NCBI RefSeq assembly: GCF_022569295.1
Contig: NZ_JAKFIA010000001.1
Coordinates: forward strand, 139,001-203,000
Direction: 5' to 3'
DNA length: 64,000 nucleotides
Source: Pedomonas mirosovicensis
GTDB lineage: Bacteria; Pseudomonadota; Alphaproteobacteria; Sphingomonadales; Sphingomonadaceae
The notes under the pieces are model-generated. The model was not told the origin of the DNA. It saw only the letters and a program-made list of their open reading frames with translations, and searched no databases. Positions 19,233-60,837 of this stretch are shown in pieces (the stretch's first letter is position 1; every line of letters starts with the position of its first letter). The position numbers and the translations under genes are program-made.

Positions 19233-20663
19233 ATGTCTCGTTTTGCTGATCGCGCCCTTGGCGCCATTATACAAGGCATTCAACGTCTGGCCCCCTCTCC
19301 GCGGGAGTCAAATTCCTGGCTGGAGGGCGGCTTCGCCCCGGTTTTCCAGGAGACGGAGGAGACCGCGCTACGGGTGACGGGCAGCATACCACCGGAGCTG
19401 GACGGCCTTTATGCCCGCATCGGGCCGAACCCGGTCCGCCCACCGCGACACGCCGGACGCTACCACTGGTTCTCGGGCGACGGCATGGCCCATGGCGTGC
19501 GCCTGCGCCAAGGACGGGCCCTGTGGTATCGCAACCGCTGGATTCGCACCGGGCCGGTGAGCCGGGCTCTGGGCGAGCCCCCCGCCCCTGGACCGCGCCG
19601 GGGCATCTTCGAGACCGTGAACACCAACATCATCGCCCATGCGGGGCAGATCTGGGCGCTGGTGGAAGCCGGCCCCTTCCCCGTTGCGCTGGACGCAGGG
19701 CTGGAGACGCGCGCCCACACCGACCTTAGCGGCACGCTCGGCACCGCCTTCAGCGCCCATCCGCACCGCGACCCGGCAACGGGCGAGCTGCACGCCATCT
19801 GCTACGACGGCCGGGTGCAGGGGCGGCTGTTCCATGTGGCGGTGGGCAGCAATGGCCGGGTGCTCCGGACGGTCGATATTCCCGTGCGCCACGGCCCGAT
19901 GGTGCACGACTGCGCGCTGACCGGGCGGTATGTCATCATTTTCGACCTGCCCGTGACCTTCTCGGCACGGCGGCTGCTGCGCGGCAGCGCCATGCCCTAT
20001 GCCTGGAACCCGCGCCACGAGGCACGCATCGGCCTGCTGCCGCGCGACAACGAGGCGACGGCTGATGACATCCTGTGGTGCGCCGTCGACCCCTGCTTCG
20101 TGTTCCACAGTTGCAACGCCTACGACCTGCCGGATGGCCGGGTGCAGCTGGATGTGGTGGCGCACGACCGGATGTTCGACCACTCGATCACCGGGCCGGA
20201 TTCGCGCCGCGTCACCTTCGAGCGCTGGCTGATCGACCCGCAGCGCGGCACCACGGCGCGCACGGTCGTGGATGATCGCGGCCAGGAATTCCCGCGCATG
20301 AACGAGCAGCTGGCGGCCCGGCCCTACCGCTATGCCTATGCGGTTTCGTACGGCGAGGATCTGACGGGCGGCACCCGCCTCATCAAGCACGACCTGGAGG
20401 CCGGACGGACGGAGACGCACGACCACGGGCCGGGCCGGGAGACCGGCGAGGCGGTGTTCGTGCCGCGCAGCGGCGCGATGGCGGAAGACGACGGCTGGCT
20501 GCTGAGCTTCGTCTACGACGCCAACCGAGGGGAAAGCGATCTCGTGATCCTCAACGCGCAGGATGTGACCGGCCCACCGCAGGCCGTGGTGCATCTCCAC
20601 CACCGCGTGCCGCACGGCTTTCACGGCAACTGGATCGATGCCGCTGAGGTGGCGATGGGGTGA
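19233..20663 (+). CDS. carotenoid oxygenase family protein
   Basis: 476 residues from ATG 19233 (CAGGAGCG upstream). It is a seven-bladed beta-propeller, non-heme Fe(II) dioxygenase that cleaves a carotenoid or stilbene-type double bond. The four iron-binding His motifs are visible in order: FSAHPHRD, MVHDCALT, FVFHSCNAYD and the C-terminal HGFHGNW. LDGLYARIGPNPVRPP is the family N-terminal block. Substrate unknown (apocarotenoid or lignostilbene are both possible). Expression is probably controlled by the divergent TetR protein. Confidence 0.93.
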   Translation: MSRFADRALGAIIQGIQRLAPSPRESNSWLEGGFAPVFQETEETALRVTGSIPPELDGLYARIGPNPVRPPRHAGRYHWFSGDGMAHGVRLRQGRALWYRNRWIRTGPVSRALGEPPAPGPRRGIFETVNTNIIAHAGQIWALVEAGPFPVALDAGLETRAHTDLSGTLGTAFSAHPHRDPATGELHAICYDGRVQGRLFHVAVGSNGRVLRTVDIPVRHGPMVHDCALTGRYVIIFDLPVTFSARRLLRGSAMPYAWNPRHEARIGLLPRDNEATADDILWCAVDPCFVFHSCNAYDLPDGRVQLDVVAHDRMFDHSITGPDSRRVTFERWLIDPQRGTTARTVVDDRGQEFPRMNEQLAARPYRYAYAVSYGEDLTGGTRLIKHDLEAGRTETHDHGPGRETGEAVFVPRSGAMAEDDGWLLSFVYDANRGESDLVILNAQDVTGPPQAVVHLHHRVPHGFHGNWIDAAEVAMG

Positions 20664-21180
20664 GCGACAATGGTGTTATTTCTATGCAGGGGTCTTGGGA
20701 CCCCTGCGCCCCATTTTGTTTGAACGGGCCGCGCCCGGCATGGCCGTCTCGCGCACCTGAGCAAGCGCATATGCTCCCTAAAATCATTCCGGTTTTTTGA
20801 GGCTGGGCGGGGAGGCGCACAGACATGGTTCTCGTCTCCTTGAGCCCTTGCGGGAATTGAATGGGATGCGTCCGGCAAGAAGGCCTCGCCCACCTGGATT
20901 GAATGCTGAACTGGCCATCTAAAGCGGCACAAACGCTCCTTAAAATTATTCAAGGATCTGCCCTTCCGATGATTTGAATCGCGCGGCTGTTGAGATGGCA
21001 ACGATTCCCTCAGGGGGCGGCCGATGCCGCACCCTGTCCCGCCCGCCACATCACCTCCGGGCGATCGGGCAGGCACAACGCGCCCTGACGGCCGCGGCCC
21101 GGCAAGCGAAAGGGGGCGCGGGGCGAAGCCGCGGGCTGAGCGCCCCCCCGCAAAGAAATACATTTCTGAAGAGAAGCGCC
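20664..21180. other. 517-bp non-coding stretch
   Basis: No gene is seen. It contains dispersed repeat copy 8 just after the oxygenase, and two short related AT-rich pieces (CTCCCTAAAATCATTC near 20774 and CTCCTTAAAATTATTC near 20936) that recur near 37838. The remainder resembles degraded sequence. Confidence 0.45.
20686..20733 (+). repeat. dispersed hairpin-plus-tail repeat, copy 8 (after carotenoid oxygenase)
   Basis: Stem GCAGGGGTC / GACCCCTGC (20686-20707), then tail GCCCCATTTTGTTTGAACGG and GCCGCG. Starts 22 bp after the stop codon, same direction. Confidence 0.72.
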
Positions 21181-21624
21181 TCAGCGCCGCTCGGCGAAGA
21201 ACTGCCTGAGAATGTCGGACGCCGCCGTTTCGGAGAGGCCGCCGTACACTTCGGGGCGGTGATGGCAGGTGGGATGGCTGAACACGCGCGGGCCGTGCTC
21301 CACCCCGCCGCCCTTGGGGTCGCCCGCGCCGAAGTAGACCCGGCGCAGGCGGGCGAAGGAAATGGCTCCGGCGCACATGGGGCAGGGCTCGAGCGTCACG
21401 TAGAGATCGCAGCCCAGCAGGCGCTCGTCCTGCAATCTGGCGGCGGCCTGGCGGATGACCAGCATTTCCGCATGGGCAGTGGGATCGTTGTGCGCGCGCG
21501 TGCGGTTGCCGTCGGCGGCGAGCACCTCACCCCGTTCATCGACGATGACCGCGCCCACGGGCACCTCGCCCCGCGCTGCCGCGAGACGCGCCTGCTCCAG
21601 CGCCATTTGCATGTACCGGCTCAT
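21181..21624 (-). CDS. tadA: tRNA-specific adenosine deaminase
   Basis: 147 residues. The zinc-binding deaminase core is complete: HAEML (His and catalytic Glu at about residues 51-53) and PCPMCAGAI (both zinc cysteines). GEVPVGAVIVD and RTRAHNDPTAHAEM distinguish TadA from guanine or cytosine deaminases. It makes inosine at the wobble position of tRNA-Arg(ACG). Normal length. Confidence 0.93.
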   Translation of the reverse strand: MSRYMQMALEQARLAAARGEVPVGAVIVDERGEVLAADGNRTRAHNDPTAHAEMLVIRQAAARLQDERLLGCDLYVTLEPCPMCAGAISFARLRRVYFGAGDPKGGGVEHGPRVFSHPTCHHRPEVYGGLSETAASDILRQFFAERR

Positions 21625-21735
21625 GGGGCCGCACCTTAATGCGGCGGCTGGCCGGCTGCAAAAGGATCAATGCCGCACGGCGCGGAGCACAACGCAAGGC
21701 CACCCCCGATGCGACCTTTCGCGCCACAGCAGCGG

Positions 21736-21764
21736 TTGACGCCCAAGCGCTTTACCCCTATATG
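21736..21764 (+). promoter_or_regulatory. sigma-70-type promoter of a probable small RNA
   Basis: TTGACG (21736-21741), exactly 17 bp, then TATATG (21759-21764). A near-consensus promoter with no coding sequence downstream on this strand. Confidence 0.75.
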
Positions 21765-21770
21765 AATTCG

Positions 21771-21913
21771 CACTTGAGAATGAATTGCAATTCTTGAGTG
21801 CTGTCATCGAAGGGCCGCCCCCACGGCCAGCGACAGAGTTTCCGTTGCGTTTCTTCCCCCGACACGTGGTCCGTGCGACTTGAGGCGGTGGCTGTCCCAC
21901 CGCCTCTTTTTTT
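21771..21913 (+). ncRNA. probable small regulatory RNA (about 143 nt)
   Basis: Starts about 7 bp after the -10 box and ends in a strong intrinsic terminator: stem GAGGCGGTGG (21882-21891) / CCACCGCCTC (21897-21906) followed by seven T. The body has no ribosome site or ORF. It holds a palindromic GAATTGCAATTC near the 5' end, a CACG/CGTG hairpin at about 21863-21877, and an unpaired TTTCTTCCCCC stretch (about 21850-21860) resembling the C-rich anti-Shine-Dalgarno loops of alphaproteobacterial trans-acting sRNAs. No known Rfam family is recognised by eye. Confidence 0.68.
21882..21913 (+). terminator. intrinsic terminator of the small RNA
   Basis: Perfect 10-bp GC-rich stem, five-base loop CTGTC, seven T. 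Confidence 0.85.
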
Positions 21914-21922
21914 GCGCGGCGC

Positions 21923-22180
21923 TCAATCGGTCGCGCGGCGGCGCGGCGCTTCTTCCCCCTCGATGATCCGGCGCATGTCCGGCGGGACGATGACGCCCGC
22001 CTCTTCGTCAACCAGCACCATGCCCGGCGCCTCCTCAAGCGCAAGGGCGCGAACGACCTGACGTTCCGACTCCGACAACTCCCGGCAGGCATGACGCAGC
22101 CACCGCCGCGTGCGCCAGGCGAGCCTGTCCGCATGGGGCTGAATGCGCCGGCGCGTGAAAAGTCCGTCAAGCCATCTCAT
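21923..22180 (-). CDS. conserved-looking hypothetical protein
   Basis: 85 residues, very basic N-terminal half (FTRRRIQPHADRLAWRTRRWLRH) and acidic middle (LSESERQVVRALALEEAP), then MVLVDEEAGVIVPPDMRRIIEGEE. No signal peptide or membrane helix. The composition and codon pattern look real, but no family is recognised. It lies 10 bp downstream of the membrane-protein gene on the same strand, so they are co-transcribed. The adjacent small RNA converges on it. Confidence 0.6.
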   Translation of the reverse strand: MRWLDGLFTRRRIQPHADRLAWRTRRWLRHACRELSESERQVVRALALEEAPGMVLVDEEAGVIVPPDMRRIIEGEEAPRRRATD

Positions 22181-22190
22181 AGCGGGCCCT

Positions 22191-22703
22191 CTATTTCGCC
22201 AGATGGAAGGGCAGCAGCATGAACGCCGCCACCTGAAGCAGCAGCGACACCAGGATCAGCCGCAATGCCCAGGTGCGGCTGCGGGAGCTGAGCGCATTGC
22301 CTTGCAGATACTGCTCGTAAGCCACCGCATAGCTGGCGGTCAGAACACGCCGCGTGCGTTTGACAATGTTTTCAACCGGCTCCGCCGCCCGCGCGTCGCC
22401 GATAAGGTCGATCAGGCGCGGCGGCTCGTGATAGACGAACAGCCATTCGGCCCGGAAAATCTGATAGGCGGAGGCAAACAGGGCCGCCGCCGCCAAGGCG
22501 CTGAGCAGCAGGATGAGCAGCGTCACCGGCTCCTGCCAGCGCGCGAGGTCGATCTCGACCGCAAGGGTGCTGAAGGCAAACACCGCGAACGACAATGCCG
22601 CCACCGGCGTGCTGACGCTGCTGCGAATCGTCTCGCGACGCGACCGCTCGTTCAGATAGAGCTGCCGGAAATGCTCCAGGTGGAGGTCGGTAATGGGGTC
22701 CAT
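22191..22703 (-). CDS. hypothetical membrane protein with three helices
   Basis: 170 residues. A charged N-terminus (LHLEHFRQLYLNERSRRETI) precedes two close hydrophobic segments (about residues 28-48 and 55-80). A cytoplasmic-looking middle region follows (PRLIDLIGDARAAEPVENIVKRTRR), then a final helix (LRLILVSLLLQVAAFMLLPF). No family is recognised. Probably the first gene of a two-gene unit with the 85-residue protein downstream. Confidence 0.7.
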   Translation of the reverse strand: MDPITDLHLEHFRQLYLNERSRRETIRSSVSTPVAALSFAVFAFSTLAVEIDLARWQEPVTLLILLLSALAAAALFASAYQIFRAEWLFVYHEPPRLIDLIGDARAAEPVENIVKRTRRVLTASYAVAYEQYLQGNALSSRSRTWALRLILVSLLLQVAAFMLLPFHLAK

Positions 22704-22813
22704 GCCGAATTCACGCTCGGCCAGACCGGGAGGTTCCTTACGCCTGCACGAAAAGGGGGAAGCACCCGCACCTTAGACCGCATGGCGTATGGCGCGCCGA
22801 GCACTGCTCTCTT

Positions 22814-22862
22814 TGCAGGGGGGCCTACCCCTCTGCACTCCCGCGATTTTTTCGGGCCGTGG
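22814..22862 (+). repeat. dispersed hairpin-plus-tail repeat, copy 9 (not after a plus-strand gene)
   Basis: Imperfect stem TGCAGGGGGGCC / TACCCCTCTGCA (22814-22837), then CTCCCGCGATTTTTTCGGG and CCGTGG. The only copy that does not follow a gene on its own strand. Confidence 0.65.
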
Positions 22863-22887
22863 TTCCGGCGTCTGCTGGAAATGCCGA

Positions 22888-23070
22888 TCAATCGACAGCC
22901 GGAGCATGATTTGCTTTGGCCCGGTTGGCGATCCACCATGTTCGAGCCGTAATAACGCCGCTCAGGCTCTCCATATCGTAGCGGCGAAGAATCCAAGCTG
23001 TTGGCAGGCCAATCAGCAGGCACGAGGGAAACACCACTGCAAATGCCAGGGCGAGTGCCAATCCCGACAA
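22888..23070 (-). CDS. possible small membrane protein, start unclear
   Basis: About 60 residues with a strong hydrophobic segment (LALALAFAVVFPSCLLIGLP) followed by TAWILRRYDMESLSG. The frame stays open upstream to about 23150 with plausible protein sequence (GALEYGWSLRGFLNVLY), but there is no in-frame ATG, only TTG or CTG. It may start at TTG, be the remnant of a longer gene, or be chance. It lies just downstream of the typA terminator on the same strand. Confidence 0.3.
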   Translation of the reverse strand: MSGLALALAFAVVFPSCLLIGLPTAWILRRYDMESLSGVITARTWWIANRAKANHAPAVD

Positions 23071-36143: not shown

Positions 36144-36219
36144 GCCGGATTAGCTCAGCTGGTAGAGCAACCGCCTTGTAAGCGGTAGGTCGTTGGTTCG
36201 AGTCCGACATCCGGCACCA
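36144..36219 (+). tRNA. tRNA-Thr (anticodon TGT)
   Basis: 76 nt with encoded CCA. The acceptor stem GCCGGAT/ATCCGGC pairs fully. D-arm TAGCTCAGCTGGTAGAGCA, anticodon arm ACCGCCTTGTAAGCGGT with loop CTTGTAA, and T-arm GTTCGAGTC are all intact. Confidence 0.98.
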
Positions 36220-60216: not shown

Positions 60217-60256
60217 GTCAACCGAAAGTTGACTCTGGAACCAAGTTTGATAAAGT
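60217..60256 (+). promoter_or_regulatory. promoter with overlapping inverted repeat, ahead of a possible RNA
   Basis: TTGACT (60229-60234), 16 bp, TAAAGT (60251-60256). GTCAAC (60217-60222) / GTTGAC (60228-60233) form a 6-bp inverted repeat over the -35. Confidence 0.45.
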
Positions 60257-60262
60257 GTCGAC

Positions 60263-60398
60263 AAGTTGGTTTGAGAGGTGGAACCGCTACCCACACACTT
60301 CACTGGCTTCGGCAAGTGGAGTAGAGGCTTCGAGCCAAGAGATCGCGCTTTGCAACGCGCTCAAACCATTCAAGGGAGAGCCTAGGCTCTCCCTTTTT
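60263..60398 (+). ncRNA. possible structured RNA (about 135 nt) on the element
   Basis: Bounded by the promoter above and by an intrinsic terminator, AAGGGAGAGCC (60372-60382) / GGCTCTCCCTT (60385-60395), which runs on into TTT. It has no ribosome site or convincing ORF. Short hairpins can be drawn (ACTTCACT with AAGTGGAGT around GGCTTCGGC, GGCTTCGAGCC, and GCG/CGC at about 60341-60356). It ends against the 3' end of the convergent nuclease-like gene, so it could act on that mRNA. Confidence 0.45.
60372..60398 (+). terminator. terminator of the possible element RNA
   Basis: 11-bp perfect stem centred on CCTAGG, T run on the plus strand. There is no T run on the minus side, so it is not primarily the terminator of the convergent gene. 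Confidence 0.7.
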
Positions 60399-60399
60399 A

Positions 60400-60837
60400 T
60401 TACAGGATGCGATGAAGGCGTCTAGCCGCCCTTCGCTTATCTACCGTGACCTGGTTGATGGTATAGGCAGACTTCACACTATACCCGCCCTCTTTGTTCC
60501 GCTCGAAGCCGATAGCCACCAGACCGTAGGGGTTCGGTGCCTCTTCAGGCAACCGACGCACAACATAGAAGTTGTCGGCGTGTTTGGGATCCTGCCCGAC
60601 GTACAAAGGCCCGGTCACGATGTCCGCGATTGCGGCTATGATGTGCGGGTAATCGTCGGGGTGGTCTTCGGCGATGTGTCTGTGACAGGCGGGGCTGACC
60701 GAAACCACGCCGGGCTCCAGTTCGGTGCCCAGCGCGCCATTGATCTTGTCTACGGGTAGCGGCCCAACAATGATTGCCGGGTACTTGCGCTTCGCTGCTG
60801 CGGGACGGCGAGGCGCAACCGGGCGAGGACTGCTCAT
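60400..60837 (-). CDS. probable BECR-fold (PBECR-like) nuclease, toxin-like
   Basis: 145 residues with a basic Pro/Ala-rich N-terminal 20. The remainder follows the pattern of phage/mobile-element Barnase-EndoU-colicin E5/D-RelE-like nucleases: VSVSPACHRHIAEDHPDDYP, IADIVTGPLYVGQ, FYVVRRL, YGLVAIGFERN, and YSVKSAYTINQ with a late Ser. The probable active site is the H-x-x-x-H pair with S/Y late, which would cut RNA. The start codon overlaps the RHH gene by 4 bp (ATGA), so both are produced together as in a type II toxin-antitoxin operon. Fold assignment is by eye. Confidence 0.6.
   Translation of the reverse strand: MSSPRPVAPRRPAAAKRKYPAIIVGPLPVDKINGALGTELEPGVVSVSPACHRHIAEDHPDDYPHIIAAIADIVTGPLYVGQDPKHADNFYVVRRLPEEAPNPYGLVAIGFERNKEGGYSVKSAYTINQVTVDKRRAARRLHRIL

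Follow-up and report, generated by a model that had tools for sequence, protein, structure and literature searches.

Signals and layout of the locus

The window analysed here, a stretch of 64,000 nucleotides in all, contains an interval between tadA and a gene for an 85-aa protein in which a small RNA is predicted on the plus strand, opposite to both neighbouring genes. The features of the locus and its surroundings are listed below.

21181..21624, minus strand: tadA, divergent neighbour (PF14437 and PF00383, both over the cut-off)
21736..21764, plus strand: sigma-70-type promoter TTGACG-N17-TATATG (read from the sequence; unit scan with Markov control)
21771..21913, plus strand: predicted small RNA of ~143 nt (promoter and terminator, without coding signal, fold z -3.2 to -3.5)
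21771..21800, plus strand: 5' hairpin of 11 pairs, two of them G-U, with loop GAAUUGCA (z -4.8 against shuffles)
21850..21860, plus strand: pyrimidine stretch UUUCUUCCCCC, candidate pairing region (pair probabilities, seed test)
21882..21913, plus strand: intrinsic terminator, perfect 10-bp stem and T7 (sequence, terminator scan)
21923..22180, minus strand: gene for an 85-aa protein, convergent neighbour, no Pfam match
22191..22703, minus strand: gene for a 170-aa protein, no Pfam match

The promoter hexamers lie at 21736-21741 and 21759-21764 on the plus strand with a spacer of 17 nt, and the 5' end of the RNA at 21771 is placed from the position of the -10 box. This box, TATATG, matches TATAAT at four of six positions and lacks the final T, and the promoter is absent from a stricter standard promoter scan (0 in 20800-22900). 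The terminator stem (21882-21906) begins 117 nt after the promoter and is followed by T7 at 21907-21913; on the minus strand no T run follows the hairpin, and the terminator signal is therefore strand-specific. The leftward-reading tadA starts at 21624 and the 85-aa gene ends at 21923, and the nearest recognised upstream gene on the plus strand, which we take to encode a carotenoid oxygenase, ends at 20663. Because no recognised plus-strand gene leads into the terminator, it serves a transcript that starts in the interval or one that is antisense to tadA. The promoter, the ~143-nt body and the 10-bp terminator with seven T claimed in the initial annotation are all borne out by the sequence and the scans.

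How often such units arise was assessed with a looser promoter rule, set after the locus was seen, that accepts at least five of six matches in the first hexamer and at least four of six in the second, with TA first. Both strands of 464 kb of the genome (the window and the adjoining 400 kb) contained 20 promoters and 24 perfect-stem terminators, which formed three pairs with a body of 30-300 nt: 21736-21913, 60229-60400 and one beyond the window. Ten Markov control sequences, equal to 20 strands, gave 0.7 terminators and 8.9 promoters per strand and no pairs. Given the real terminators, simple arithmetic predicts ~0.14 chance pairs, compared with the three seen in 464 kb. Together with the terminator itself, the unit scan supports the view of a well-delimited small RNA gene.

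The second unit, 60229-60400 on the plus strand, combines the promoter TTGACT-N16-TAAAGT with a terminator and is predicted to fold into a closed multi-stem junction (fold z -4.1). It gives a sub-threshold Rfam match to skipping-rope RNA (RF02924; 27.6 bits against a cut-off of 36.7). Across 98 genomes RF02924 had sub-threshold matches (E <=0.01) in five and none over the cut-off, and this stricter search did not return 60229-60400 itself. With its fold and its sub-threshold match, this rival unit means that the description of 21736-21913 as the cleanest non-coding gene in the window may not hold.

Predicted fold and coding potential

Folded from 21771, the RNA reaches -54.4 kcal/mol, with z scores of -3.2 and -3.5 in two runs, and the signal is located in the two end hairpins. 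None of 300 shuffles was as stable as the 5' hairpin. The middle of the RNA (21801-21881) folds no more stably than its shuffles (z 0.27); once the terminator is removed, the body reaches a z of -1.2, with 40 of 300 shuffles equally stable. The absolute energy is ordinary for this GC-rich window, since 46 of 100 other 143-nt stretches are equally stable. The 5' palindrome was also considered as a shared operator and rejected, its inner 26 nt having a single copy in the genome when up to three mismatches are allowed.

The pyrimidine stretch UUUCUUCCCCC had been described as unpaired. In the predicted fold this holds for UUU and three C (unpaired probabilities 0.89-0.97) and for the last C (0.63); CUUC is mostly paired (0.20-0.27 unpaired), its partner being GAAG at 21809-21812 with a probability of ~0.75.

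A single plus-strand frame of at least 20 codons lies wholly within the RNA, a 32-codon frame with a TTG start at 21785-21883. Its GC3 is 0.63, compared with 0.84 in long open frames selected by their codon bias; its codon log-odds per codon is -0.53, compared with +0.24 for the 85-aa gene, +0.37 for tadA and +0.44 for the 170-aa gene. The earlier statement that there is no ORF is thus nearly right: a frame is present, and its codon statistics are non-coding. That the transcript is an mRNA for a 32-residue protein, read from the TTG at 21785 as far as the stop codon at 21883, where the terminator stem begins, would agree with the coincidence of frame end and stem start; it is very improbable, as the TTG falls within the 5' hairpin loop, GC3 and codon usage are those of non-coding sequence, and a DNA-level search of family genomes found no related DNA.

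Comparison with known RNA families and predicted target pairing

No Rfam family reached its gathering cut-off at 21736-21913, and in the whole window a single tRNA (36144-36216) did so. The housekeeping RNAs (6S, SRP, RNase P, tmRNA and tRNA) gave no Rfam match at the locus. Searched in E-value mode (E <=5), 21600-22000 returned suhB and three other families only; AbcR (alpha-r15) and other alphaproteobacterial sRNAs of Rfam were found neither at gathering for 21736-21913 nor in this wider search. The family comparison covered the families in Rfam; published sRNAs of the order also exist outside it, such as those of Zymomonas mobilis, and a search of the literature for sRNAs under the names Sphingomonadales or Sphingomonadaceae found none. 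At this scope, the earlier remark that the family of the RNA is not recognised is supported.

The best sub-threshold Rfam match at the locus is suhB (RF00519), with 25.7 bits against a cut-off of 41 and an E of 0.0027 for 401 bases. SuhB/MmgR RNAs resemble the locus in being small, with a C/U-rich stretch ahead of a strong terminator. The suhB matches in the same genome (E <=0.01) score 32.4, 32.4, 26.0, 25.7 (the locus) and 25.2 bits, and matches of 24-26 bits also occur elsewhere in the genome at terminators. One weak match stands behind what is presumably a PEP-CTERM protein gene, and the ~25-bit level was therefore taken as background.

A SuhB-like core, AUCCUCCCCAAGGA, is common to seven loci in five near relatives, all seven below the Rfam cut-off. 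A second model was built from 15 relatives' sequences, these seven and eight over the cut-off, with the genome under study excluded; it kept four base pairs and was run with default filters, and close to half of its sequences (7/15) are thus below the Rfam cut-off. In the genome it finds, at 42.2 bits, the locus L216:963-1049, equivalent to G000:C1:1587262-1587348 on the plus strand, and 21736-21913 is not among its 25 matches up to E 10 (469 kb, default filters). The core AUCCUC, invariant in the 15 SuhB-like sequences, is absent from the locus. Since the model finds the likely SuhB of this genome elsewhere and not at 21736-21913, and in view of the Rfam score and the relatives' loci, membership of SuhB was rejected; that the locus is a divergent copy of the SuhB/MmgR family has only the slightest probability, its top rank among sub-threshold matches notwithstanding. 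The two also differ in length, the SuhB of Sphingopyxis granuli being, in the available text of PMC6563040, an Hfq-dependent RNA of 61 nt, compared with the ~143 nt predicted here.

Two further observations concern SuhB-like loci of this genome and its clade. The locus L216:963-1049 is the genome's likely SuhB, although it scores 32.4 bits, below the cut-off, with Rfam. RF00519 exceeds its cut-off in one of 12 genomes (this one and 11 near relatives) compared with 47 of 59 genomes sampled more widely, and may under-report this clade. A separate sRNA-like locus at ~2297033-2297220 on the minus strand (L214, G000:C1:2296300-2297900) has C-rich stretches CUCCUCUCCUCCCCCC, GUCCUCCCCCG and AUCUCCCCC before a terminator, sub-threshold Rfam matches to suhB (32.4 bits) and SorX (29 bits), and a similar-looking counterpart in another genus (L215, G012:C54). 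It has the anti-Shine-Dalgarno look that was earlier attributed to 21736-21913.

Predicted pairing with target mRNAs was examined at 373 gene starts, as given by a simple gene caller, comparing ribosome regions with coding controls and each seed with 20 letter shuffles. UUUCUUCCCCC prefers ribosome regions by -1.02 kcal/mol, with 19 compared with 4 of 373 at -12 or below; its shuffled seeds (-1.33, sd 0.20) are at least as good. No effect was seen either for the 27-nt region around it (0.03 compared with 0.50, sd 0.56, in shuffles), for the second C-rich loop (0.49 compared with 0.74, sd 0.47) or for the loop of the 5' hairpin (0.19 compared with 0.17, sd 0.22). The seed of the genome's SuhB-like RNA beats its shuffles by ~3 sd (-0.73 compared with +0.49, sd 0.37), which indicates that a genuine seed does register in this test. 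A generic anti-Shine-Dalgarno sequence beats its shuffles by ~1 sd only, and shuffles of a U/C-rich seed can resemble one.

In architecture the RNA resembles AbcR1/AbcR2 (alpha-r15) of the Rhizobiales, which, in the available text of PMC8844928, likewise have a hairpin at the 5' end and a single-stranded pyrimidine motif flanked by stem-loops. The AbcR sRNAs are described there as using CUCCUCCC and UUCCCCUC (aSD2), and of these motifs only UUCCCC is common to the locus. The 5' hairpin loop at 21771-21800 does not contain CUCCUCCC, and the motif here is partly paired. Because the preference of UUUCUUCCCCC lies within that of its shuffles and only UUCCCC is shared with AbcR, masking of ribosome sites is not claimed. 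The anti-Shine-Dalgarno loop proposed in the initial annotation fares poorly, with four bases mostly paired in the predicted fold and a ribosome-site preference no greater than that of shuffled seeds, and such a reading of UUUCUUCCCCC is weak. Of the earlier account as a whole, the promoter, the terminator and a well-delimited sRNA gene of unrecognised family stand, the unpaired stretch stands in part and the absence of an ORF nearly so.

Distribution among relatives and origin of the locus

DNA searches returned little beyond the locus itself. Among 59 relatives one genome matched, its own; neither this list nor that of the family genomes drawn for TadA includes another genome of the genus. 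In 397 family genomes 75 matched at E <=0.1, where only the genome's own match exceeded 37 nt and, apart from a match in G237, the other, weak matches spanned 17-37 nt with E >=0.00165. In 396 order genomes two matched at E <=0.001, the genome itself and one inside a coding frame; the sets overlap, and two candidates were scored per genome in the family and order searches. The latter match, in genome G237 (27 nt, 93%), was set aside because it lies inside a 448-codon open frame, the start of which we take to be that of a seryl-tRNA synthetase. Viral contigs contained no match to an 18-nt pattern, and plasmids gave one 27-nt match with an E of 0.5.

A covariance model built from the single sequence and run on 20 near genomes recovered the locus and 13 weak matches (<=26.2 bits), with a match at E <=1 in nine of the 20 genomes, its own included. 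The four best of these were rejected, being ends of open frames before terminators (G079, G129 and G012) and the SuhB-like locus of G122, and no convincing homologue was present among the matches read (four best in context and four more as alignments, of 13). As no homologue was found, neither covariation nor any trace of purifying selection is seen. Fast-evolving sRNAs escape such searches, and the absence of homologues is thus not proven.

The neighbourhood of tadA was compared across the family. TadA was found in 147 of 149 family genomes drawn (own included), and the 30 best loci, the genome's own and those of 29 relatives, were examined over 800 nt upstream. At a distance of up to 300 nt from tadA, only the genome itself, and none of the 29 relatives, has a terminator on the strand of the sRNA; seven relatives have one farther out (463-627 nt). 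Open frames were followed in five of these seven, L060 and L065 being left out: the frame in L052, L057 and L059 is presumably that of ribosomal protein L28, L058 probably has the same in a shifted frame, and in L050 no open frame ends there. A TadA search of genome contigs returned a best identity of 74% among the matches listed (best 80 loci), and no near relative. Relatives of the 85-aa gene exist in two of 148 other family genomes, G013 and G126 being genomes in which the 170-aa and 85-aa genes also adjoin, with neither tadA nor typA beside them in the sequence examined. In neither does a terminator lie within 1200 nt downstream of the two genes on the corresponding strand. Conservation of the RNA between tadA and the 85-aa gene was thus sought from both sides and not found. 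The 170-aa protein gave only weak matches in PADLOC (best E 0.0021).

Ten of the 29 relatives' loci examined have typA within 1.5 kb on the upstream side of tadA and in the same orientation (L037, L039, L041, L043, L045, L046, L051, L053, L054 and L062, where typA of L045 is identified by 27 matching residues at the end of the locus). In G079, the closest genome by TadA (76%) among the 149 drawn, 30 nt separate the stop codon of typA from the point where the TadA match starts; this distance is 26 nt and 28 nt in two more relatives, 618-1097 nt in the other seven of the ten, and 1587 nt in the window. The extra DNA in the window holds the 170-aa gene, the 85-aa gene and the sRNA locus. This variation (26-1097 nt in 10 relatives) suggests that DNA has been gained or lost here repeatedly. 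Since the two genes recur together elsewhere and have no terminator there, the pair is cassette-like, and the RNA seems to have been added at this site, for which gain here and loss elsewhere are both possible.

The arrangement raises the alternative that the transcript is a cis-antisense RNA: if the 85-aa mRNA runs on towards tadA, the RNA would be fully complementary to the 3' end of that mRNA and to the tadA leader, and would regulate tadA or the operon locally. Gene order and strands favour it, the 170-aa, 85-aa and tadA genes all being on the minus strand, and no terminator-like site was found on that strand between the 85-aa gene and tadA. However, there is no coding overlap, the RNA ending 9 nt short of the 85-aa stop and beginning 146 nt upstream of tadA; such a role would call neither for a terminator of its own nor for a stable hairpin; and in G079, the relative closest by TadA, tadA comes straight after typA, leaving no room for such an RNA. 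This alternative is accordingly improbable. The unit could also be a fortuitous or decayed promoter-terminator pair without function, producing transcriptional noise in a recently changed interval, which would be in keeping with the imperfect -10 box, the variable interval and the lack of a detected homologue in the genomes searched. The strong perfect terminator, the significant 5' hairpin and the excess of observed over chance pairs in 464 kb render this explanation unlikely.

The most likely reading, and one that we hold to be probable from the sequence signals, is an independent, lineage-restricted small non-coding RNA gene of the Hfq-type, trans-acting kind. The locus has the general features of such sRNAs, namely its own promoter, a U-tail terminator, a non-coding body and an intergenic position, and Hfq is encoded in the genome (PF17209, 112 bits). 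The sigma-70-type promoter would start a ~143-nt transcript that ends at the intrinsic terminator; its ends would be protected by the stable hairpin at the 5' side and by the terminator with its U tail, which would also allow Hfq to bind; and the loosely folded middle, with its U/C-rich stretch, would probably pair with target mRNAs and lower their translation or stability. The rarity of such units (three in 464 kb, none in 20 control strands), the strand-specific terminator, the 5' hairpin with its z of -4.8, the non-coding frame and the presence of hfq support an sRNA gene of this kind, as may the AbcR-like combination of a 5' hairpin and a pyrimidine motif between stem-loops (available text of PMC8844928). 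Counting against it are the lack of a detected homologue among the genomes covered, the imperfect -10 box, a middle no better than shuffles, an ordinary fold energy and a preference of UUUCUUCCCCC that lies within composition.

In comparison with the lineage-specific trans-encoded sRNAs catalogued in the Rhizobiales, the RNA predicted here is known from the sequence of one genome alone, and it is probably a young but otherwise ordinary regulatory RNA of bacteria. Tentatively, it may be a new sRNA gene outside described families, born or gained in one lineage within the variable typA-tadA interval, with or after the two-gene cassette of the 170-aa and 85-aa genes. Most bacterial genomes have many orphan sRNA candidates, and this locus would otherwise be one more of them. 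If it is transcribed, it would be a datable young sRNA gene, its gain or loss being placeable between two genomes because typA and tadA are 30 nt apart in G079.
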